From positions 2,054,501 through 2,118,500 of the forward strand of contig NZ_CP014691.1 in NCBI RefSeq assembly GCF_002005465.1: 64,000 nucleotides of DNA, in the 5' to 3' direction. Origin of the DNA: Neoasaia chiangmaiensis. GTDB lineage: Bacteria > Pseudomonadota > Alphaproteobacteria > Acetobacterales > Acetobacteraceae. Made by a program: the position numbers and the translations under genes. How positions within the stretch are numbered: the first letter of the stretch is position 1; each line of letters opens with the position of its first letter. The notes under the pieces are model-generated. The model searched no databases. It was not told the DNA's origin and was given only the letters and a program-made list of their open reading frames with translations. Shown piece after piece: positions 17,290 through 34,691 of this stretch.

Positions 17290-17517
17290 CCGACCGGCTC
17301 GCGATGGTCATTCGCCAAGGCGTGCGAACGGGCCGGGCTGACGTGGAAATCCACGCCCCACCATCTCAGGCACTCGGTCGCATCCTGATTCGCGATGGAC
17401 CATGTGCCGATCGATCAGGCGGCGGACTGGCTGGCGACAGACCCTGCGACGCTACGGCGCGTCCATCGCGAGTTCGACCCGTCTTATCTTCGTGGCATTG
17501 CGGATGATTTTGAATGA
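17290..17517 (+). pseudogene. Decayed integrase of a second tRNA-Glu prophage
   Basis: A C-terminal integrase relic homologous to the integrase at 33769-34557. It shares the GSRWSFAKACERAGL region, TPHHLRHSVAS, then an in-frame TGA (17386-17388) where the other copy has Trp, then DHVPIDQAADWLATDP and REFDPSYL. The catalytic Tyr of the VYRKFD motif is His here (RRVHREFD). It ends 57 nt before the left att repeat, mirroring the 54-nt spacing of the right-hand integrase. It is the remnant of a related prophage integrated in tandem. Confidence 0.8.
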
Positions 17518-17573
17518 TAGTGGTCCATCTGGACCACAACACACCTTGTGGGTAACTAAAATTACCCAACAGA

Positions 17574-17626
17574 ATCAATGGCGTCCCGTACGGGATTCGA
17601 ACCCGTGTTGCCGCCGTGAAAGGGCG
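17574..17626. repeat. attL-side direct repeat (53 bp)
   Basis: Identical over 53 bp to 34611-34663, which covers the T-arm, variable region and 3' anticodon stem of tRNA-Glu. Similarity extends weakly upstream (GGTAACTAAAATTACCCAAC against GATAACTAGAATTACCCAAC at the right). Here the tRNA 5' half is missing, so this copy is the phage-side remnant. Confidence 0.9.
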
Positions 17627-17784
17627 TAAGTGATTACGCTATTTCAAGGCATTATATGCAATCATCAACAGGTATGCGGGCTCGTAAAACGGCTATAAAC
17701 AGCCATCCACGAAACCGTTGATGTTCAGGTGAACATTTTCACTCCCCCCTGTACTCCGCCGCCCGAATGTGAGATTCTGCGTGG

Positions 17785-17853
17785 GCTGCGGTGACCCGAG
17801 AAGAACGGCTGGGTAAAGCCAGTGGGCCGGTGAAACTCCGGATAAGCCGCAGC
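17785..17853 (+). other. Structured element A upstream of the phage tRNA
   Basis: A 69-nt block closed by a perfect 7-bp stem (GCTGCGG 17785-17791 with CCGCAGC 17847-17853). It contains internal hairpins GGCT-gggtaa-AGCC and CCGG-tgaaact-CCGG. The segment from 17793 resembles element B on the other side of the tRNA (GAAGAAC, then GGCCGGTGRAA). It is probably an RNA structure; the function is unknown. Confidence 0.45.
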
Positions 17854-17859
17854 ACATGA

Positions 17860-17936
17860 CGTAGGGTGGAGCAGCCCGGTAGCTCGCCAGCCTCATAAGC
17901 TGGAGGTCGTCGGTTCGAATCCGGACCCTGCAACCA
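17860..17936 (+). tRNA. Phage-encoded tRNA-Met (CAU), initiator-like with altered anticodon stem
   Basis: A full cloverleaf with encoded CCA. It has an unpaired C1:A72 end and an A11:T24 pair in the D stem, both hallmarks of bacterial initiator tRNA, and a CTCATAA anticodon loop. The three consecutive G:C pairs that initiators need at 29-31:39-41 are replaced by A-T, G-C, C-G (stem CCAGC/GCTGG). Pair 49:65 is a G-A mismatch. It may be a decaying copy or a tRNA with changed function. Confidence 0.85.
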
Positions 17937-17975
17937 GAAGCCGCGCGCCTATAGCTGCTGTATGGGTAACGCGGC

Positions 17976-18057
17976 ACCTGCACGCAGCACAGACCGGGAA
18001 GAACCTGGGCGGCCGGTGGAAGCCCGGCGATCAAGGTTCGAAGGCCGAGTCGCAGGT
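17976..18057 (+). other. Structured element B downstream of the phage tRNA
   Basis: A block closed by ACCTGC (17976-17981) and GCAGGT (18052-18057), containing GCCGG-tggaagc-CCGGC. From 17992 it reads GACCGGGAAGAACCTGGG then GGCCGGTGGAAG, parallel to element A. The two copies flank the tRNA. It does not fold as a tRNA. Confidence 0.4.
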
Positions 18058-18165
18058 AATTGCCACGACATTTTACCGAACAATTAACGATTTATACCAG
18101 TCGCGGGACGTTCCAAGAACGGATTGTTGCTAAGTGCTTGGAATAGAGTCGTTTTTCGGCTAGCT

Positions 18166-18333
18166 ATGACTCTCTTGATACGCGAAAGGGCCGGATTGGC
18201 GTCCGACCCTTTCAGCCACCAAAGCGAAGCAACCGCCTGGTGGGATGTGCTGAACATAGCACGCGGGGTGTACCTGCGTGAAGCACTATCAGTCAAGGAG
18301 GCGGTTGCGAACTTTCGGAGTAATAGTTCGTGA
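18166..18333 (+). CDS. Small hypothetical phage protein
   Basis: A 55-aa frame (MTLLIRERAGLASDPF at the start, ALSVKEAVANFRSNSS at the end). Its stop overlaps the GTG of the next gene (GTGA), which is the main support. No family recognised; an in-frame earlier start exists at 18124. Confidence 0.4.
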   Translation: MTLLIRERAGLASDPFSHQSEATAWWDVLNIARGVYLREALSVKEAVANFRSNSS

Positions 18334-18545
18334 GCGAGTCCTCGAACCCGCGACAGCCGTCGCGGAAACTGACGGAACACGAAGCCGTCATCATCATCAA
18401 TCGCATCAAAGGCCGCGAATTTCAGAACCGCATTGCGGCTGACTTTGATGTCAATCCTGGTCGTATCAGCGACATAAAGATGGGGCGACTATATCCACAT
18501 CTCCCACGGCCTCCACACTGGACGTGGCCGAAGAAAACAGACTGA
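18330..18545 (+). CDS. Small helix-turn-helix DNA-binding phage protein
   Basis: 71 aa. The core HEAVIIINRIKGREFQNRIA followed by DFDVNPGRISDIKMGRLYPHL reads as a helix-turn-helix of the kind found in small phage regulators that resemble homing-endonuclease repeat domains. The GTG start overlaps the previous stop, and a strong terminator follows directly at 18554, so it ends a short plus-strand operon. The target is unknown. Confidence 0.65.
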   Translation: MSESSNPRQPSRKLTEHEAVIIINRIKGREFQNRIAADFDVNPGRISDIKMGRLYPHLPRPPHWTWPKKTD

Positions 18546-18553
18546 CCAAAGGA

Positions 18554-18576
18554 GGGACGCTTCGGCGTCCCTTTTT
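18554..18576 (+). terminator. Rho-independent terminator
   Basis: GGGACGC-TTCG-GCGTCCC stem-loop (7 bp, UUCG tetraloop) followed by five T. It terminates the small plus-strand phage operon. Confidence 0.9.
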
Positions 18577-18579
18577 CTT

Positions 18580-18666
18580 TCACCCCCGCCAGTCCCGCAT
18601 AACGCCCCAGCAGACGACGGCCACGTAAGCGACGACGACCGCCGTCCAGTAGGCGACCTCAGCCAC
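18580..18666 (-). CDS. Very small single-membrane-segment phage peptide
   Basis: 28 codons from GTG 18666 (AEVAYWTAVVVAYVAVVCWG, then VMRDWRG). One transmembrane helix with a charged C-terminus. It overlaps the preceding tiny membrane frame by 8 nt and lies at the end of the late operon, where lysis functions often sit. The function is unknown. Confidence 0.4.
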   Translation of the reverse strand: MAEVAYWTAVVVAYVAVVCWGVMRDWRG

Positions 18667-18933: not shown

Positions 18934-19214
18934 TGTTCCGTTTCCTCATGAAGGCGGCTCCGAAGGTGGTATCCTTCCAACTGCCAGATTTGTTCGCGCG
19001 CATTCTGTAGCGCGATCTTGCGGCCAATTTCGGCGTCGAAGTTCTCTGGGCTTGCACACGCTGACGTCCCGACGAGCGTGAAGCCATTCTTGAGAACGAC
19101 CACCCCGATTGTCAGGCATTCGAGCGCCGGATGGTGCGGGCGGAATAGGTCGCTTGCGCGCCCCCAGAACTCGGCTGAGATCGTATCGTCGATATGCGAC
19201 GGGGTTAAGTGTGC
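18930..19214 (-). pseudogene. Gp49/Sf6 gene 66-family phage protein, 5' end lost in a fusion
   Basis: The frame carries the family signature LTIGVVVLKNGFTLVGTSAC, ASPENFDAEIGRKIA and QIWQLEGYHLR (N4 Gp49/Sf6 gene 66 family, function unknown). There is no start codon of its own: the frame upstream of about 19205 belongs to a different gene read in another frame. A deletion has joined the tail-fibre N-terminus to this gene. Confidence 0.75.
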
Positions 19215-19377
19215 CCTGCCGCCACGACTTGTTGGCCTGCTGGCTGGATGCCTGCCCTTGAACCACGCCGTTGACGAAAGTCCCACCAGTCGCGATGGCC
19301 GACTGATAGGCGGAGTCCGACAGGACATTTGCGCCTGAGCCGTAGGCAAACGGAACAAATCCGTTCGTGCCGCTCAT
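19205..19377 (-). pseudogene. Tail-fibre/tail-collar protein N-terminal fragment
   Basis: Begins MSGTNGFVPFAYGSGANVLS and continues to about residue 52 (QASSQQANKSWRQ), the typical virion-attachment start of a phage tail fibre. It then runs into the Gp49-like sequence out of frame. The ATG overlaps the DUF2612 stop (ATGA). The receptor-binding part is deleted. Confidence 0.65.
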
Positions 19378-19660
19378 GAGATATCTCCGCCGAAATCGTT
19401 ATCGATGACGAATTGAGGAATGAAGAAGAACGAGACGTCGATGCCGACCGGCTTGATCGGCAGATAGCCGCCTTGAAGCACGGCCTGGAGCACGCGAGAG
19501 ATGACGGCCGTCACTGTGAACTGAACGGCCATATCCTGCTCGTCGACTTTGATCGGTGCGGTCGTGCTGCCAACCGCCGTCTGGATGATCTCCACGGCGT
19601 CCGGCAGCGATCCGTCCCAGCGGTTGCAGAGGATCTTGGCGCGAATGGACGGTCGCGTTG
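19374..19660 (-). pseudogene. DUF2612-family tail protein, C-terminal part
   Basis: Reads AKILCNRWDGSLPDAVEIIQ, then DMAVQFTVTAVIS, LQAVLQGGYLPIKPVGIDVSF and FFIPQFVIDNDFGGDIS. This matches the C-terminal half of DUF2612 tail proteins, which normally follow baseplate J. Its 5' half and the whole baseplate J gene are missing. The frame joins the gp46-like fragment near 19655. Confidence 0.65.
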
Positions 19661-19953
19661 ACCGTCAGCACGCGGTTGGCCAACGAACTGCCGTAGGATG
19701 AAATCGCCTGAACGCCGGGCGTCGCCAGAATTCGGGCCTGAATGACGGCGTCATAGGTAGGTGTGGTGCCCCGGCCGAGAACCTGCGTTGCCCAGGGCAT
19801 GCCATCGGACGTGTCAGCGAACCACTCGCCAAGCCAGAGCTTGAGGCGTGTTTCAACGAGTTGACCTACCGCTGCTGGCGTATTCTGCTGGAATGCGGCC
19901 TGGCCTGTGCCGAACTGCATGTCGCCGTTCGCATCCATCATCCGCACACGCAT
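19655..19953 (-). pseudogene. Baseplate wedge protein (Mu gp46-like), 3' truncated
   Basis: The start at 19953 gives MRVRMMDANGDMQFG, then LVETRLKLWLGEWFADTSDG, VLGRGTTPTYDAVIQARILA and SLANRVLTVNATV, the usual body of gp46-like wedge proteins. After about residue 98 the sequence changes to out-of-frame DUF2612 coding DNA. The fusion removed its end and the next gene. Confidence 0.7.
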
Positions 19954-19956
19954 GGT

Positions 19957-20622
19957 CTATTCCGGTTTCTGGGTGGTCCCGCTGCCGGTCTGCACGCCGG
20001 GGTGAATATGCGAGGTGAGCGAGATCGGTCCGGCCTGAACGTCAGTGTCCGACGTGATCTTTCCGCCCGTTACTGCCAGGCCCGACGACGTCAGTTGCAT
20101 CCTGCATCCGCCCACCGTCATCGTGATCGAGCCGCTTTTGACGTCGATGACCGTCTGGCCATCGTCGGAGCGAAGCTGGGCACTGGCCTGACTGATGTTT
20201 GCAAGCGGGCGTGCGGCGCTGGTCAGCCCGACAAGGGCGATTCCGTCTGAGAGGTCGTGTTGGCGAAGGTCGTAGGCTGGCTGCGCCTCTCCATTTCTAA
20301 ACCATTCATCCAGCGAGCGGGATGCGAAGACGAGCAAGCATTCGTCCCCCTCATTGACTGGGAATGTCAGTGAAAAGCCGCCGCCCCGCGCAAAGTGAAT
20401 TGGGCAATGAGGCAAAAGAGGCAGGTCGTGCCAAGCAATTGTCAGGTCGTCGTTGACAAATCTTCCTTTGACAGCAGGCTGCACAGAAGCGAACGGAGCG
20501 CCGTTCTCGAACGAGACGCTTTGTATGACCCCGGGAAGGGCGGTCCACATGCGGGCCTGAAGGCCATGCAATGAGTCGACAAGATTTTGGTCTTTGTCGA
20601 AGAATCGCTCGCGGATATCCAT
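19957..20622 (-). CDS. Baseplate central spike protein (Mu gp45/Gp138 N-terminal family)
   Basis: 221 aa. The N-terminal half has the Gp138-type OB-like domain: LPGVIQSVSFENGAPFASVQ, PLLPHCPIHFARGGGFSLTF and VNEGDECLLVFASRSLDEW. The C-terminal half is beta-helical (ITMTVGGCRMQLTSSGLAVT, SDTDVQAGPISLTSHIHPG). The HxH (SHIHPGV) near the end resembles the metal-binding tip of contractile-tail spikes. It looks intact and lies 3 nt after the hub gene. Confidence 0.8.
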   Translation of the reverse strand: MDIRERFFDKDQNLVDSLHGLQARMWTALPGVIQSVSFENGAPFASVQPAVKGRFVNDDLTIAWHDLPLLPHCPIHFARGGGFSLTFPVNEGDECLLVFASRSLDEWFRNGEAQPAYDLRQHDLSDGIALVGLTSAARPLANISQASAQLRSDDGQTVIDVKSGSITMTVGGCRMQLTSSGLAVTGGKITSDTDVQAGPISLTSHIHPGVQTGSGTTQKPE

Positions 20623-20626
20623 AGCA

Positions 20627-21610
20627 TTAACTCGTTGCTGATATGGCCGCCTGACTGGTTACGGCCGAGGAATCGACGTCGATCGCCATGATGGTGGTGA
20701 GCCAGTCATTACCGCGGGTGTCTCCCATATGTTCAGCATAGGCCACGCGGTATTGCCCCGTCGCCGACAAGCCCGCTACCGACGCAGTGCCATCAGCGTT
20801 GACCGTGTAGTTTCCGCCGTTGACGCCGACACCAGGGTCGACCTCTTCTTGTGCGATAGTCGTTTTATGGCCTGTGTCGTTGCGAGAGTAGATGGCGACT
20901 ACGGCGTCTGGGACCATTCGAGGGTCGAGCAGGCAAGTCGCCTGAACACCCCCCTCGGTCTGCATCGGGATTCCGACTAGGCCTGTCGTCGGCGACAGAT
21001 GAATTGCCGAGGTCGCGTTGGAACTTGCGGACTTTTTGGCCGGCTGAAAGAAATTGATCGTCGAGCCATCGCATCGACCGAAGGCCGAAACATTGGCGGC
21101 TACCGTTCGCAGTGCATCACGGGCGTGCCCGTATATAACCTTGGGGCGGCCGCCGGATCCGGGAACGGCAGGAATTGTCCCCACCGTAATACCGTCGTCG
21201 CTCGCAGCCTGCGCGATCGCATGCGCCACGTCCGCATGCGTCCAGCCCTCGGCAAGAGATTGGTTCATTCCAGCTTCGGCATACCAGTCGTCATTCGTGA
21301 CCGCGAGAATATCGAGGTATGTGTCTACAGGGCTTTCACGGCCGAAACGGAACTGACGGATGTCGCCGGAGAACAGGAGGTCGCTCTTGCCGTTGTAGCC
21401 AACGGACAGCGAGACCGCCTTGTTATATTGGGCCTTTATCAGTGCCGCGCTATCATCGGACAGATTATAAACGCGAGCCCGTAGGGTCTTGGGCGTCGAG
21501 ACTACTCCATGCACGACGCTGAAGGTTATGCGCAGTTGAGACAAGTCGACGGTGCCGCCATTCCCATTTGCCGCAACGAGCGAGCAGGTACGGATAAACT
21601 TTCGGCTCAC
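20627..21610 (-). CDS. Phage baseplate hub protein
   Basis: 327 aa. VHGVVSTPKTLRARVYNLSD, KAVSLSVGYNGKSDLLFSGD and IRQFRFGRESPVDTYLDILA are typical of the hub protein that binds the tail tube and carries the spike. Position fits: plug, hub, spike, wedge is the usual order. The start overlaps the plug stop. The exact family name cannot be given without a search. Confidence 0.7.
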   Translation of the reverse strand: MSRKFIRTCSLVAANGNGGTVDLSQLRITFSVVHGVVSTPKTLRARVYNLSDDSAALIKAQYNKAVSLSVGYNGKSDLLFSGDIRQFRFGRESPVDTYLDILAVTNDDWYAEAGMNQSLAEGWTHADVAHAIAQAASDDGITVGTIPAVPGSGGRPKVIYGHARDALRTVAANVSAFGRCDGSTINFFQPAKKSASSNATSAIHLSPTTGLVGIPMQTEGGVQATCLLDPRMVPDAVVAIYSRNDTGHKTTIAQEEVDPGVGVNGGNYTVNADGTASVAGLSATGQYRVAYAEHMGDTRGNDWLTTIMAIDVDSSAVTSQAAISATS

Positions 21611-21927
21611 GTAGTTATCGCCACATAAAGGTGAGAGGTGGTGCCAAGATTGTCGAAGGTCGGCACCGCATCGGGGTCGCCGTCCGTCGTGACGAACAAG
21701 CCGGCGCCAAGCCCGAGGTAACCATACTGAGCCAGTAGGTCTGCGCCGGTTACAAGCGGGATGCCCTGGACAATCGCGTTTCCCGACGCATCGGCGATGT
21801 CGAGCACCCAGCCGCCCTGGTCCACGTTCTGGTAAGTGAAGCGCAGGTTGTATGTCGTGCCATTGATGCTGGCAGAGAACGTCTGCGGCGCGCCTGATAG
21901 CGGGACTTCATAGAAGGTTGTCGCCAT
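21607..21927 (-). CDS. Baseplate plug protein (Pam3 gp18-like)
   Basis: 106 aa. It contains FYEVPLSGAPQTFSASINGT, YQNVDQGGWVLDIADASGN, IVQGIPLVTGADLLAQYGYL and TSHLYVAITT. This matches the small plug proteins recalled from short-tube contractile phages, which sit in the baseplate between Dit-like and hub proteins. The 4-nt overlap with the hub supports an operon. It appears intact. Confidence 0.72.
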   Translation of the reverse strand: MATTFYEVPLSGAPQTFSASINGTTYNLRFTYQNVDQGGWVLDIADASGNAIVQGIPLVTGADLLAQYGYLGLGAGLFVTTDGDPDAVPTFDNLGTTSHLYVAITT

Positions 21928-24006: not shown

Positions 24007-24384
24007 TTACGCATGTTCGAGACGGCGCGTCTTTCGCACGCGGTTGCGACGCTCGAGGACGTCGGCACACGCATCAAACGAGTTGCGTTGCTTCCGCTTC
24101 CGCAGGGTAGCGAGAGACGCCTCCATCCTCGGCAGGAGATCCCCGTATTCCTCTCGCGGCATCGTTTTCGCAATTTCCGGATCGGCCTTGATCGCTTGAG
24201 TCTGCTTCCAGAGGCGGGAGATGATCACCGCCGCGCCATAAAGGCTGCGCTCGCAGTTCGCGACGTTTGCTTGCTCCGGTGCATGCCGCAGCCGGTCCTC
24301 GACGATCTTTGCGCGTGACAGCCAGTCGATCTCGTCGAAGTCGTCCGGGACTGCATCCGTCGAGAGAAGGGCCAGCGCGTTCAT
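24007..24384 (-). CDS. Hypothetical phage protein downstream of KilA-N
   Basis: 125 aa, highly charged and helical (DDFDEIDWLSRAKIVEDRLR, YGAAVIISRLWKQTQAIKAD, then a basic tail KRKQRNSF...RNRVRKTRRLEHA). The start overlaps the KilA-N stop by 4 nt and a terminator follows. No family recognised; probably co-regulated with KilA-N. Confidence 0.6.
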   Translation of the reverse strand: MNALALLSTDAVPDDFDEIDWLSRAKIVEDRLRHAPEQANVANCERSLYGAAVIISRLWKQTQAIKADPEIAKTMPREEYGDLLPRMEASLATLRKRKQRNSFDACADVLERRNRVRKTRRLEHA

Positions 24385-25268
24385 GACACTGCCTCCGGCG
24401 TCTTGGCGAAAGGGACCACTGATCCTTCTGTCGCCATGTCTGCGCGGAGGGCGTCAACCAAGCTCGGATGCCAGTGCCACGCCTGCGCTGTCCCTGCAGA
24501 GTGCTGGCGATTGGTCTCATCCAGCTTGGCAAATGGCGCACCTTTCTTCGTTGGCTGCCAATGTCCACGATCATCTTTTTCCTGGTAGCCGTGGTGGAAT
24601 ATCAGCTTGTTCGCAGCCATCGCGGCGGAGCGCCCGGAACCGAGGCTTAAACGCTCTCCAACCTCAGTTGCGAGAAGGTAGGTGACCTGCTCGACGGCCG
24701 GCTGATAGGTAATACCCATAATTTCGAGAGGGTTCTCACCGCATTTCTTTTCGCAATAGCGCGCGCCGTAGAGGCCAGCCTGCGTGGTGTCCATACCCAT
24801 CAGCAGTGCAATGCCGTGACCAGTCTTGAAGGCAGACAGCGGGCTGGGGCGGCGGGAACGTGACTTGGGCAACATGATCTTGCCGGTCACCATCGCATCG
24901 AATGCGTCCAGCACAGCGAGGTGGAACGATGCGCTTATCCATTCACCATAGGCATATACGAGCAAACGATGTCCAAACGTTCCTGGTGTTTTCCCGCCAT
25001 TGATGACCTTAAGTGGTTGAAATTGCTCACTCGGGAAATTCCCCGACTGGCTCAATTCTGCCACCAGAGCTTTTGTCTGGGCGTTCTTCACCCATTCAGA
25101 AGGCGCTTTATTCGGATCGCCGCCGGAAGCTCTGTGACAATCGTTTAAGCTATAGCGGCCTTCGGCATCCTGTCGGATCGAGGTCGATAGGATGGTGAGT
25201 TCGTTGCCGACAACTGACGGTCCGTTTTGTGTTGCCGGGGACGAGGCTCTTTTGATAGTAAGGGTCAT
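24381..25268 (-). CDS. KilA-N domain protein
   Basis: 295 aa. The KilA-N domain spans about residues 25-130: IRQDAEGRYSLNDCHRASGG, PSEWVKNAQTKALVAEL, GTFGHRLLVYAYGEWISASF and HLAVLDAFDAMVTGKI. KilA-N proteins are phage DNA-binding antirepressor-type regulators. The C-terminal part (about 150-285) has GMDTTQAGLYGARYCEKKCG and LLATEVGERLSLGSGRSAAM and is a variable domain I cannot name. It shares an operon with the 125-aa gene. Confidence 0.85.
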   Translation of the reverse strand: MTLTIKRASSPATQNGPSVVGNELTILSTSIRQDAEGRYSLNDCHRASGGDPNKAPSEWVKNAQTKALVAELSQSGNFPSEQFQPLKVINGGKTPGTFGHRLLVYAYGEWISASFHLAVLDAFDAMVTGKIMLPKSRSRRPSPLSAFKTGHGIALLMGMDTTQAGLYGARYCEKKCGENPLEIMGITYQPAVEQVTYLLATEVGERLSLGSGRSAAMAANKLIFHHGYQEKDDRGHWQPTKKGAPFAKLDETNRQHSAGTAQAWHWHPSLVDALRADMATEGSVVPFAKTPEAVS

Positions 25269-29071: not shown

Positions 29072-29431
29072 ATGCCGTGGGTCGTTGAGCACACTGACGA
29101 ATTCGAGGCGTGGTTTGATTCGCTATCTGAGAAAGAACAGGAAGACGTCTACGCGTCAGGCCTGTTACTGGAGGAGCGCGGGCCAAGCCTGCGCTTTCCG
29201 ATGTGTTCAGGTGTCAGCGGTTCCCGTCATGACCATATGCGTGAATTACGGATCCAGAGCGGCGGCCTACCTATCCGGGTATTCTACGCGTTCGATCCTC
29301 GCCGCGCCGCCATTCTGTTGATAGGGGGCGGAAAGGTAGGGAACGACCGCTTTTATAGCCAGATGATCCCGGTTGCCGATGATTTGTATGACGCGCATCT
29401 CTCCGAGTTAAGAAGGGAGAAGCTGATATGA
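29072..29431 (+). CDS. higB: HigB-type toxin (RelE/ParE superfamily)
   Basis: 119 aa. VVEHTDEFEAWFDSLSEKEQ, LRFPMCSGVSGSRHDHMREL, RIQSGGLPIRVFYAFDPRRA and AILLIGGGKVGNDRFYSQMI fit the phage-derived HigB-like family of ribosome-dependent mRNA interferases. The toxin gene comes first, as is usual for hig loci, and overlaps the antitoxin gene by 4 nt. It probably stabilises the prophage. The symbol is assigned by family pattern. Confidence 0.82.
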   Translation: MPWVVEHTDEFEAWFDSLSEKEQEDVYASGLLLEERGPSLRFPMCSGVSGSRHDHMRELRIQSGGLPIRVFYAFDPRRAAILLIGGGKVGNDRFYSQMIPVADDLYDAHLSELRREKLI

Positions 29432-29769
29432 CCAAACGCAAGACACTCGCATCGCTCGGCGCGAAACTCACGCCGACAGCCCGCGAACGTGCGTCCGTCA
29501 AAGCCCGCGCGATGTCAGACGCCATGGACCTCGCAGAGCTTCGTAAAGCACATGTCCTGTCGCAGAAGCAGATTGCTGAACTTCTGGGCGTCAACCAAGC
29601 ATCCGTCGCAAAGATGGAAAAGCGCGCAGACATGTATGTCAGCACCCTCCGAAGCTACATCCAGGCGATGGGCGGCGAGTTGGAGATCGTAGCGCGTTTT
29701 CCTGACCATGCGGTGCCCATTCGCAGCTTTGCCGAGATCGGGCAGGATGAGGAACTGTGCGACGCCTGA
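29428..29769 (+). CDS. higA: HigA-type XRE antitoxin
   Basis: 113 aa. Residues about 35-90 are an XRE helix-turn-helix (LRKAHVLSQKQIAELLGVNQ, ASVAKMEKRADMYVSTLRSY, IQAMGGELEIVARF). It neutralises the toxin encoded just upstream and represses the shared promoter. The ATG overlaps the toxin stop (ATGA). Confidence 0.85.
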   Translation: MTKRKTLASLGAKLTPTARERASVKARAMSDAMDLAELRKAHVLSQKQIAELLGVNQASVAKMEKRADMYVSTLRSYIQAMGGELEIVARFPDHAVPIRSFAEIGQDEELCDA

Positions 29770-31479: not shown

Positions 31480-32631
31480 TCACTTCAATCCTATCATGCC
31501 CGCCCATTTCGAGTAGGTTTCGCTTAACGATGGGTCGTTCACGGGCGTGAGTTGCTTTGTACCCATGTATAAAACTGACTGGGTGTTGGCCGGCGTTGCC
31601 TGAGTAGAAGCGTCTGACAAGTTCGATGAAGCGCTTGCATTCGCTGTCACACTTCTTGCCATCAGCACCTCTTGGCAGGTTGCGGTGACGAACATCGAAT
31701 ATGCACTCTCGGGCGTCGTTTCGGTGGCCACGCTCGTGATGATCATGTTTTTGTAGAGATGTTTCATCGTCACGATCGTGCATAGCTCTCGCCTCTTCTG
31801 AAGTGCCAGCAATGCATCATAAACTTTGCGGACATACCCCTCGCCAAGATTTTGCAGAGAACTGCTGTCAGCAAAGTCGTCGGCAACATCCGCCAGCGCC
31901 TGCATGCTGGCGTTTGACCATCCGTACGATAGCTCAAGTTGAGCTGGCATCTTGAAGGCGTGGTCAGATATCCCATCCTTGATGCCCTGCTTGTCAGCAT
32001 TGCCATGCACGGTGACGTTCACGGTGGCATTGTTGTGGATCGCCGAGTTGTCGTTGTTCTGTGTGGCGTAGGACGGATTGCGAGAAAGAATATCCGCTGC
32101 AATGGCGGCACGGTTGGACTCTTCTGTGCCGAAGCGATTGGCTGGCCGCTCGAACTGGTCGCTGAAAATCGACGAGGACTGAGCAAAGTCTTGAGCGCTG
32201 CGCAGCATAGCGAGCGCGTTACGCGCGCCAGGGTCTCCCCCCTGCTGCATTTCTAGAGCGGCAGCCCTCAACTGCTCCGTGAATGGCGCTGTTCGCACAT
32301 CAATTCCGAACCGACGCAGAATATCGTCGGCGCGCGCTTGATGCCATTGGAATACGCCAAATGCCTTGCCGCCGTCTCCGCGCCGTCCTTCGTTTAGGCC
32401 GCTCTCTTGGACCCCGCTTGCAACGATGCCCGCGGCTTGCTCCCGGGTAAGGCCCAGTGTTTTCTGGAAGAAGTTGAGCGCCATCTGCTCGCGCGACAAA
32501 ACCTCTCCTTGCGGGAGAGAGCCGATCCGTCCTTGCGCCCTAAGGCGCGAGATCGCAGCACCCTCATTTGTATTGGCTGATGTAGGGTGGAACGCTTCAT
32601 ACACGAGTCCCAAGGGGCCAAGGACGCGCAA
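31480..32631 (-). pseudogene. Fusion of tape-measure C-terminus (tail lysozyme) with Dit-like baseplate protein
   Basis: 383 codons in one frame. Residues about 50-150 hold a phage tail-lysozyme-type domain (FFQKTLGLTREQAAGIVASG, VQESGLNEG, AFGVFQWHQARADDILRRFG). At about residue 222 (VNVTVHGNADKQGIKDGI) it switches in frame to a Dit-like tail protein (SDHAFKMPAQLELSYGWSNA, VRKVYDALLALQKRRELCTI, TSVATETTPESAYSMFVTAT). These are normally two proteins. The start is itself lost in the junction with DUF2213. It could still be expressed as a chimera. Confidence 0.7.
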
Positions 32632-32639
32632 GCGTGTCC

Positions 32640-33007
32640 TGATGCTCGCCTTCGCCGCGTCGGAGATGTGTCAGCGTTCCGCGCGAAAATGCCTGGTAGT
32701 TGTCCGGATTCAGCATCACACCCGGCGGGTGATTGAGCGTGACGGGCACCCCCTCAAACGAGGAGATGGCATCCGGGTGGAACAGGGTCTCGGCGTCACG
32801 GTGAACCGTGATTGTGCCGTCCTTCGCAGGCTCTGCAGGTAGTTCGCTCTGGTCGTAGGTCATCTGACCCAGTCGCGCGATCGGCACATTGCGGCAGAGC
32901 AGAGAACCATCTGGCAATCGCTCTCGCGTTTCGCCTATTCTCTGCACGGAATAGATATCCGCGCCACGATTAGGCGCGAAGTCCAGCGTGGAGATATGTT
33001 TGAGCAC
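32640..33007 (-). pseudogene. DUF2213 head protein (protease/scaffold), N-terminal part
   Basis: Reads [60 protein letters not shown] and [20 protein letters not shown], which is the N-terminal domain of DUF2213 phage proteins encoded before the capsid gene. After GEHQDTL it runs out of frame into the tape-measure sequence. The rest of the gene, capsid and tail genes are gone. The GTG at 33007 is a likely start. Confidence 0.7.
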
Positions 33008-33302
33008 AGGCAATAATCCTGAACCGATCGATATCGGTTGGGTGGTCGATGAACTACGCATGACGGCGTATGAGAATGCCGATTGCGGCGCGCTTGAGCC
33101 GCTGCTGATGATGCGGCAGTCGCCGGAATATTCAGCGGCGTGGCTGGTCGTTCAGTGGTGGCGCATTCTGAAGTCTGCCGCCCCGAACGATGAACGGGCG
33201 GCGGCGATGCTGACGCTGGTGAAGGGTAGCGTGACCAAGGAAGACTGGCCCGAAGGCGCGGATGACATCACACCGCCGGATTTGAAGCTGGTCGGACTTT
33301 AA
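33000..33302 (+). CDS. Hypothetical phage protein
   Basis: 100 aa from TTG 33000 with GGAGA 8 nt upstream. It has [40 protein letters not shown] and a C-terminal acidic part. It slightly overlaps the divergent DUF2213 start. No family recognised; starts at 32988 or 33060 are possible. Confidence 0.45.
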
Positions 33303-33768: not shown

Positions 33769-34557
33769 GTGCCGCTAAAGGAAAAACTTGGACACTTGCG
33801 CGTGGATCAGATCAGCCAACGGCAATGGAACGAATACGCAGCCACGCGCGTGAAAAAACCAAACCCGAGAAGAAAAACGCTCGAAGGATACGAGCCGACT
33901 CCCGTATCCTCGGGAACCCTGCGACGAGAGTTTAACGTTCTGCGCGCGGCTCTCCGTCAGTCATGGAAGGATGGCAATCTTGTAAAGCCGCCAGTTCTCG
34001 AGGTGCCGCGCGACAGTGCGCCACGCGACAAGTTCCTGACCAAACAGGAGGCGCGTCGGCTTCTTGATGCATGCGAAACGCCGCACGTGCGCATATTCGT
34101 CGCTCTCGCCATGTTCACCGGCGCGCGCAAGGGGTCGATCTTGGCTCTGACCTGGGACAGGGTGCACTTTGATTCCGGCCGCGTTGATTTTCAGGAGCCA
34201 GGACGGACCCTCACGGTAAAGCGCCGTGCTGTCGTGCCAATGGCGCCAGCGCTGCGAAAGGAACTGGAGGACGCTGCGCGATTTCGCACGTGCGATTACG
34301 TAGTGGAATGGAACAGCAAGCGCGTGACATACGGATTGCGTTGGTCGTTCCGCAAACTCTGCCAGAGAGCGGGTCTATCGTGGATGCCAACGCCTCATCA
34401 TTTTAAGCATAGCGTGGCATCGTGGATGGCGATGAACAAAGTGCCGATCGACCAGGCGGCCGACTGGCTGGCGACCGATCCCAAGACATTGTGGAACGTC
34501 TACCGCAAATTCGACCCAAGCTATCTGGAGGAGGTAACATCGACGTTCGATCTATAG
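33769..34557 (+). CDS. int: Tyrosine-type phage integrase, N-terminally truncated
   Basis: 262 aa from GTG 33769. It contains the central part of the core-binding domain and the whole catalytic domain: TGARKGSILALTW (first Arg), PHHFKHSVASW, PIDQAADWLATDP and VYRKFDPSYL (Tyr nucleophile). The usual HxxR of box II reads HFKH, so the second Arg is Lys. Family members are about 330-400 aa; the arm-binding N-terminus is missing and an in-frame stop lies at 33688-33690. It sits 54 nt from attR. Activity is doubtful. Confidence 0.85.
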   Translation: MPLKEKLGHLRVDQISQRQWNEYAATRVKKPNPRRKTLEGYEPTPVSSGTLRREFNVLRAALRQSWKDGNLVKPPVLEVPRDSAPRDKFLTKQEARRLLDACETPHVRIFVALAMFTGARKGSILALTWDRVHFDSGRVDFQEPGRTLTVKRRAVVPMAPALRKELEDAARFRTCDYVVEWNSKRVTYGLRWSFRKLCQRAGLSWMPTPHHFKHSVASWMAMNKVPIDQAADWLATDPKTLWNVYRKFDPSYLEEVTSTFDL

Positions 34558-34610: not shown

Positions 34611-34663
34611 ATCAATGGCGTCCCGTACGGGATTCGAACCCGTGTTGCCGCCGTGAAAGGGCG
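34611..34663. repeat. attR direct repeat (53 bp) within tRNA-Glu
   Basis: Identical to 17574-17626. Here the repeat continues into the complete tRNA-Glu gene, so this is the chromosome-restoring copy. The recombination core should lie within the tRNA 3' half. Confidence 0.9.
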
Positions 34664-34691
34664 GTGTCCTAGGCCTCTAGACGAACGGGAC
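34616..34691 (-). tRNA. tRNA-Glu (UUC), prophage integration site
   Basis: 76 nt with CCA. The acceptor GTCCCGT pairs with ACGGGAC, the anticodon loop reads CTTTCAC (UUC) and the T loop is TTCGAAT. The 3' 48 nt are duplicated at the far prophage end. Confidence 0.95.

Follow-up and report, generated by a model that had tools for sequence, protein, structure and literature searches.

An initiator-type tRNA with a reversed 31:39 pair in a decayed prophage of Neoasaia chiangmaiensis, and its counterparts in phages

Neoasaia chiangmaiensis carries, inside a prophage, a tRNA gene that resembles an initiator in its body and departs from the host's own initiators in its anticodon stem. This raises the question of whether such a gene still serves initiation, has been turned to another use or is decaying with the element around it. 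Here, we analysed the gene within a stretch of 64,000 nucleotides of the chromosome (referred to as the window), and compared it with the initiators of the host and its class, as well as with similar tRNAs in phages and viral contigs.

A tRNA with a CAU anticodon was called on the plus strand at 17860-17936/17933 by ARAGORN and Rfam (RF00005; 48.4 bits, gathering score 29, E 2.8e-7), and the initiator marks that a sequence-only reading had named, C1:A72 and A11:T24, are indeed present. Read from the sequence, the acceptor has C1xA72, G2:C71, U3.G70 and A4:U69, the D arm has A11:U24, the anticodon stem consists of C27:G43, C28:G42, A29:U41, G30:C40 and C31:G39 below a CUCAUAA loop, and CCA is encoded. 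The T stem contains a G49.A65 mismatch that the earlier reading had passed over. At minimum energy the bare sequence keeps its anticodon stem and does not form the cloverleaf (z -0.63), a fold of bare sequence being no test of a modified tRNA. Unpaired 1:72, A11:U24 and the CAU anticodon are traits of bacterial tRNA-fMet, and 29:41 and 30:40 equal those of the host initiator. The traits of elongator tRNA-Met or tRNA-Ile2 (CAU), a D arm with G24 and an A31:U39 pair, are absent, with U24 and C31:G39 in their place. From the three consecutive G-to-C pairs of the strict initiator rule (29:41, 30:40 and 31:39), the tRNA has 30:40 only; this rule is unfair in Alphaproteobacteria because the host's genuine initiators also fail it at 29:41.

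The tRNA lies in a decayed 17-kb prophage with the following features:

17574 to 17626, no strand: left attachment repeat of 53 bp, the 3' part of tRNA-Glu(TTC) (repeat identity)
17860 to 17936, plus strand: initiator-type tRNA(CAU) (sequence, ARAGORN, Rfam and host comparison)
18946 to 21927, minus strand: tail-end module with a tail fibre remnant, baseplate wedge, spike (GpV-like apex), baseplate hub and gp18-like plug (PHROG/Pfam-type profile matches)
24381 to 25268, minus strand: KilA-N protein; its alignment with the counterpart in Komagataeibacter phage phiKX2 gives 35% identity over 296 positions (profile match and alignment)
31480 to 33061, minus strand: head and tail remnants, namely a DUF2213 protease fragment and an ORF matching tape-measure and Dit-like families (profile matches)
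33769 to 34557, plus strand: tyrosine integrase adjoining the right repeat (PHROG phrog_1, E 1.3e-37; PF00589)
34611 to 34663, no strand: right attachment repeat, extending into an intact tRNA-Glu gene (repeat identity)
34616 to 34691, minus strand: intact tRNA-Glu(TTC), the integration target (ARAGORN, Rfam)

The prophage location proposed earlier is thus borne out by 53-bp tRNA-Glu repeats identical on both sides, with integrase and baseplate genes between them; a 32-bp core of the repeat occurs exactly twice in the genome. The tRNA is prophage-encoded, lying between the attachment repeats in the company of phage genes, adjoins the left repeat and faces opposite to the tail genes. The pattern of tRNA-dependent lysogeny is not seen, as the target tRNA-Glu is still intact and the cargo tRNA is Met-type. 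No terminase, portal or major capsid protein was found among 14 prophage ORFs scanned (ten, then four), and the double match of one ORF to tape-measure and Dit-like families is a sign of internal deletion. Two antirepressor-like proteins are present, KilA-N and ORF6N. Within the host's family, a similar baseplate hub was detected in three of 147 genomes including its own; the stretches taken from the hub loci of the two relatives (G013 and G343), 19.9 kb and 15.3 kb long, contain no tRNA.

Two side observations concern the history and cargo of this element. Just outside the left repeat (17290-17518) lies a second, broken integrase C-terminal remnant with about 75% DNA identity to the end of the prophage integrase, which suggests serial insertions at the same tRNA-Glu. 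At 29072-29769, a toxin-like gene (phrog_3445) precedes a helix-turn-helix gene, and the two may form a toxin-antitoxin pair of the HigBA type within the prophage.

The sequence on both sides of the tRNA is also structured (17770-17859 and 17937-18075):

17782 to 17859, plus strand: structured leader with arms TGGGCTGCGG/CCGCAGCACA, ending just 5' of the tRNA (fold of 17770-17859, z -1.9)
18012 to 18028, plus strand: hairpin GCCGG-UGGAAGC-CCGGC, 3' of the tRNA (structure search)

The loop UGGAAGC also stands downstream of the tRNA in phiKX1/2 and in viral contig L090, on different stems. The shared hairpin had looked like a new structured RNA, but a pattern scan for it matched L090 only. Within 17500-18500, no Rfam family other than tRNA reached its gathering score, and three sub-threshold matches had E values of 0.1 to 1.7. 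No sigma-70-like promoter was found in 17500-18600. In addition, 45 bases elsewhere in the host genome (G000:C1:1953327-1953371) are 93% identical to the sequence at about 17747-17791 upstream of the tRNA.

The host genome contains three further close matches, identical over the tRNA and all adjoining 23S rRNA, and these rrn-linked initiators have A29:U41, G30:C40 and G31:C39. The window tRNA shares with the host tRNA-fMet C1xA72, A11:U24, the CUCAUAA loop, A29:U41, G30:C40 and CCA, and differs from it at 13 of 77 positions: 31:39 is C:G instead of G:C, 27:43 is C:G instead of U:A, the acceptor has U3.G70 and A4:U69, and the T stem is changed at G49.A65 and elsewhere. The earlier base reading of the stem as A-T, G-C, C-G was therefore right, whereas the claim that three G:C pairs had been replaced was not: the middle pair is unchanged, the host also has A29:U41, and among the three pairs the difference is limited to 31:39, still G-C in composition but reversed. 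Among 289 alphaproteobacterial genomes, 171 had a match; nearly all matches listed had the arm TCAGG-CTCATAA-CCTGA and shared A29:U41 and G30:C40 with the host, and among them C31:G39 was found in the window copy only. In the host's family the C31:G39 pattern occurred in one of 397 genomes, which is the window's own.

According to PMC11497404 and PMC4611024, 16S G1338 contacts 29:41 and A1339 contacts 30:40 in the P site. Since both contacted pairs equal those of genuine host initiators and 31:39 is not contacted, the idea that the P-site pairs were replaced fails, and what holds is that the stem differs from the host's. The swap may nevertheless have an effect of some kind, as G31-C39 is described in PMC4611024 as supporting the stacking of the 32-38 pair in free tRNA. 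C3:G70 is named in the literature as an aid to formylation; the U3.G70 of the window tRNA departs from it and is also present in phiKX1/2, a Devosia prophage and viral contigs L357-L359.

These same sequences, namely Komagataeibacter phages phiKX1 and phiKX2, a plasmid-prophage of Devosia sp. SL43 and L357-L359, have the acceptor CGTAGGG/CCCTGCA of the window tRNA, and all of them retain G31:C39. By whole sequence the nearest is L358, with five differences in 77 positions (31, 39, 57, 64 and 65), of which only position 65 breaks a pair, followed by the Devosia tRNA (7/77), L359 (9/77), phiKX1/2 (10/77) and L357 (11/77); the L358, Devosia and phiKX1/2 tRNAs have an initiator body. The Rfam score of 48.4 bits compares with 59.4-62.9 for L035, L037, L357, L358 and L359, a sign of mild decay of the window tRNA.

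The tRNA of phiKX2 lies opposite to the late genes, as in the window, and adjoins int, although the relationship between phiKX2 and the window prophage is distant. Besides the KilA-N proteins, similarity was found at the spike C-terminus (42% over 84), and BLASTP did not detect any between the hub and wedge proteins. In a tblastn search of the first 50 kb of phiKX2 with the ORFs of the window, the integrase matched weakly (27% over 75), and the other matches were limited to the tRNA region and frames overlapping the genes already matched. Single tRNA-Met or tRNA-fMet genes have been reported in Sinorhizobium phiLM21-like prophages (PMC12429752), which resemble the window in having a solitary CAU tRNA on a temperate alphaproteobacterial phage. 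The phiLM21 tRNA, which is preceded by a NusG-like antiterminator and an HNH gene and followed by the terminase, has G31:C39 and U29:A41, unlike that of the window.

An initiator-type tRNA on a phage is not in itself unusual and is of a known kind: in addition to the Sinorhizobium cases described in PMC12429752, a pattern neutral to the stem matched at least 120 IMG/VR stretches. The recurrent C31:G39 form is a variant of it. The C31:G39 pattern (U24 in an initiator-type D arm, CTCATAA loop, C31:G39) matched at least 120 stretches of IMG/VR, whose samples are non-random, versus 49 stretches in 84,980 species genomes; the search patterns demand the CTCATAA loop, a portion of the D arm and an AGG that follows the stem, and miss other forms. 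Among the matches listed, the viral set comprised 86 distinct tRNAs (120 minus 17 poor tRNAs and 17 duplicates), with G:C at 30:40 in 80 and 1:72 unpaired in 44, G.U in three and paired in 39. The genome set comprised 39 (49 minus eight poor and two duplicates), with G:C at 30:40 in 36 and 1:72 unpaired in 24, G.U in one and paired in 14. The arm CCAGC-CTCATAA-GCTGG was exact in three of 11 phage tRNAs read, as well as in many viral contigs. Rhizobium phage RHph_TM3_3_3, Microbacterium phage Pumpernickel and Streptomyces phage Wakanda have an anticodon arm identical to that of the window in tRNA-Met genes whose acceptor ends and hosts differ from the window's. The Pumpernickel tRNA has G11:C24 and U1:A72 and is thus not a strict initiator body.

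The genomic surroundings of these genes point to phages. At these loci no 23S rRNA was detected with one host-made probe, which distant rRNA could escape. We scanned one large adjoining ORF at each of 20 of the 41 non-poor genome loci against PHROGs (1e-8) and found a packaging, virion or integrase gene at 12: terminase, portal or tape measure at ten (L163, L165, L171, L172, L176, L180, L191, L192, L203 and L211) and integrase at two (L174 and L196). A helicase or primase was found at two others (L198 and L199); neither an integrase nor a helicase is by itself proof of a phage. Two loci had other PHROG matches (L188, unknown; L185, sulfotransferase), and the scanned ORF had no match at four (L168, L177, L181 and L195). 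At a threshold of 0.001, one of two ORFs of L175 matched a transcription antiterminator and neither of two ORFs of L209 had a match. Next to viral C31:G39 tRNAs we found terminase (L059, L122, L076 and L116) and portal genes (L116 and L122), and no PHROG match for the ORFs of L045 (two), L070, L090, L156 and one of L059. The RHph_TM3_3_3 tRNA follows a NusG-like antiterminator.

The tRNAs of Pumpernickel and Wakanda sit inside tRNA clusters. Among the matches listed, no non-CAU tRNA was present in 38 of 70 viral C31:G39 loci of at least 8 kb and in 50 of 73 stem-neutral viral loci, although other tRNAs may sit outside because these loci are partial. For loci without other tRNAs, codon compensation is a less natural explanation than the provision of one initiator; other loci do have further tRNAs.

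We built a tree from 221 distinct tRNAs after removing columns 31 and 39. It required 56 changes of the C31:G39 state, compared with a mean of 72.9 and a lowest value of 61 among 200 shuffles, and the best identity of 29 of 122 C31:G39 rows lay outside their own state. With 64 columns and many unresolved forks, the tree reveals scatter and does not count origins.

Phage initiator-type tRNAs also vary at the acceptor end. Both 1:72 (GxA) and 2:71 (UxC) are unpaired in L051, L065, L070, L119, L209 and others, as well as in phiLM21 and RHph_TM3_3_3. Position 1:72 takes the forms CxA, UxU, CxU, AxA, AxC and U:A (L043-L047 and L212-L322), and the host's three initiator genes have the single form C1xA72.

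Which stem pairs are held and which are free can be read from the stem-neutral set. Among the matches listed, its 113 distinct tRNAs had a standard pair at 31:39 in every case (G:C 100, C:G 5, U.G 3, G.U 2, A:U 2 and U:A 1), G:C at 30:40 in 111, and A:U (63), G:C (34) or U:A (16) at 29:41; C31:G39 would rise to nine of 117 if four further stretches, presumed to be L048-L051, were added. As a control, 115 listed phage CAU tRNAs with an elongator D arm had A:U at 31:39 in 87, G:C in 25 and C:G in two, and G:C at 30:40 in 91. As elongator-type phage CAU tRNAs mostly have A31:U39, the C31:G39 stem of the window is not that of an elongator. In the phage tRNAs sampled, G:C at 30:40 is held harder in the initiator type than in the elongator type, in line with what selection on the P-site contact would produce. 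Our reading of these counts is that selection probably acts on the helix and on 30:40 and leaves 31:39 free; positive selection for C:G is not implied.

We consider that the window tRNA is a phage-borne auxiliary initiator-type tRNA in which 31:39 is free to change, with a probability of about 0.55. To judge from sequence comparison, the reversed pair seems to be a phage variant that is tolerated or favoured, and not simple decay, because the swap occurs in many unrelated phages and is rare in bacterial genomes. We infer that MetRS would charge such a tRNA through its CAU anticodon, that MTF would formylate it on account of the unpaired 1:72 and of A11:U24, and that it would enter the P site since the contacted pairs A29:U41 and G30:C40 equal those of the host initiator. 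As 31:39 is not contacted, phage copies could flip it to C:G with the helix kept. Phage initiator-type tRNA genes are often found next to int or close to where antiterminator and terminase meet, and commonly no other tRNA accompanies them; they are therefore likely to supplement the initiator tRNA in the course of the phage cycle. The window copy itself, in a dead prophage and with one real flaw (G49.A65), may be weakly active or silent.

On the other hand, the tRNA may be a relic drifting with a dead prophage, its stem change being meaningless, which we regard as rather unlikely. This reading draws on the same facts that speak against an auxiliary initiator: the prophage is gutted with genes fused or truncated, the T stem has G49.A65, the Rfam score is 11 to 14.5 bits under that of five relatives, 17500-18600 contains no promoter-like site, and the closest relatives have G31:C39; for decay there is also the failure of the bare sequence to form a cloverleaf, and against the auxiliary initiator there are also U3.G70, the several neighbour ORFs without a PHROG match and the paired 1:72, an elongator trait, in 39 of the 86 viral C31:G39 tRNAs listed (plus three G.U). 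Simple decay is opposed by 31:39, which was altered on both sides and yet remained paired, by the intact C1xA72, A11:U24, G30:C40, loop and CCA, and by the identical anticodon arm in phages of three other hosts and many viral contigs. Thus, the decaying copy that the sequence-only reading had offered agrees with the state of the prophage and with G49.A65, but not with the compensated swap. Whether relatives share the altered stem, which that reading had proposed as a check, has a mixed answer: the closest relatives lack it, yet it recurs widely in other phages.

It is improbable, in our opinion, that the tRNA is a nuclease-proof initiator, in which the swap alters C39 at the A38/C39 bond cut by VapC and the phage initiates after a toxin has removed the host tRNA-fMet. 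According to PMC4105405, which cites Winther and Gerdes, 2011, the bond that enteric VapCs cut in tRNA-fMet lies between A38 and C39, and the changed C39 of the window tRNA adjoins this site; a VapC of the alphaproteobacterium Bosea degrades tRNA-fMet (PMC8522696), phage tRNAs have been suggested to escape anticodon nucleases through changes in their anticodon loop (PMC10264068), and the host genome has three PIN-domain genes with unassigned targets. However, G31:C39 is kept in 100 of the 113 phage initiator-type tRNAs listed, and evasion by the swap is therefore not general. Moreover, the excerpts of the literature examined do not mention a need of VapC for C39 or G31, and in the S. flexneri VapC example phages generally avoided encoding tRNA-fMet (PMC10264068). 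It is equally doubtful that C31:G39 tRNAs as a group are a recurrent phage countermeasure, with the P-site grip unchanged and the 38/39 bond recoded so that tRNA-fMet-specific VapC-like toxins cannot cut; if true, phage translation would continue after host initiation was shut down.

The least probable reading is that the initiator body has become an elongator Met tRNA, or that it is a decoy diluting host initiation. It could draw on the paired 1:72 of the 39 viral tRNAs mentioned above, but the window copy has C1xA72 unpaired, keeps G30:C40 and lacks the common elongator type at 31:39 (A:U in 87 and C:G in two of 115, among the matches listed), and its conversion to an elongator is ruled out by the unpaired 1:72 and the elongator control sample.

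With regard to phage initiator-type tRNAs in general, no description of a reversed 31:39 pair was found in the open-licence literature, which hints at its novelty. In the phage copies sampled, 30:40 is nearly fixed, 29:41 is A:U, G:C or U:A, and 31:39 is reversible. Phage variation therefore appears to be a natural test of which initiator G:C pairs matter, and its outcome agrees with the P-site structures. These tRNAs are natural variants ready for tests of initiator selection and of whether phages shield initiation from tRNA-cutting toxins.
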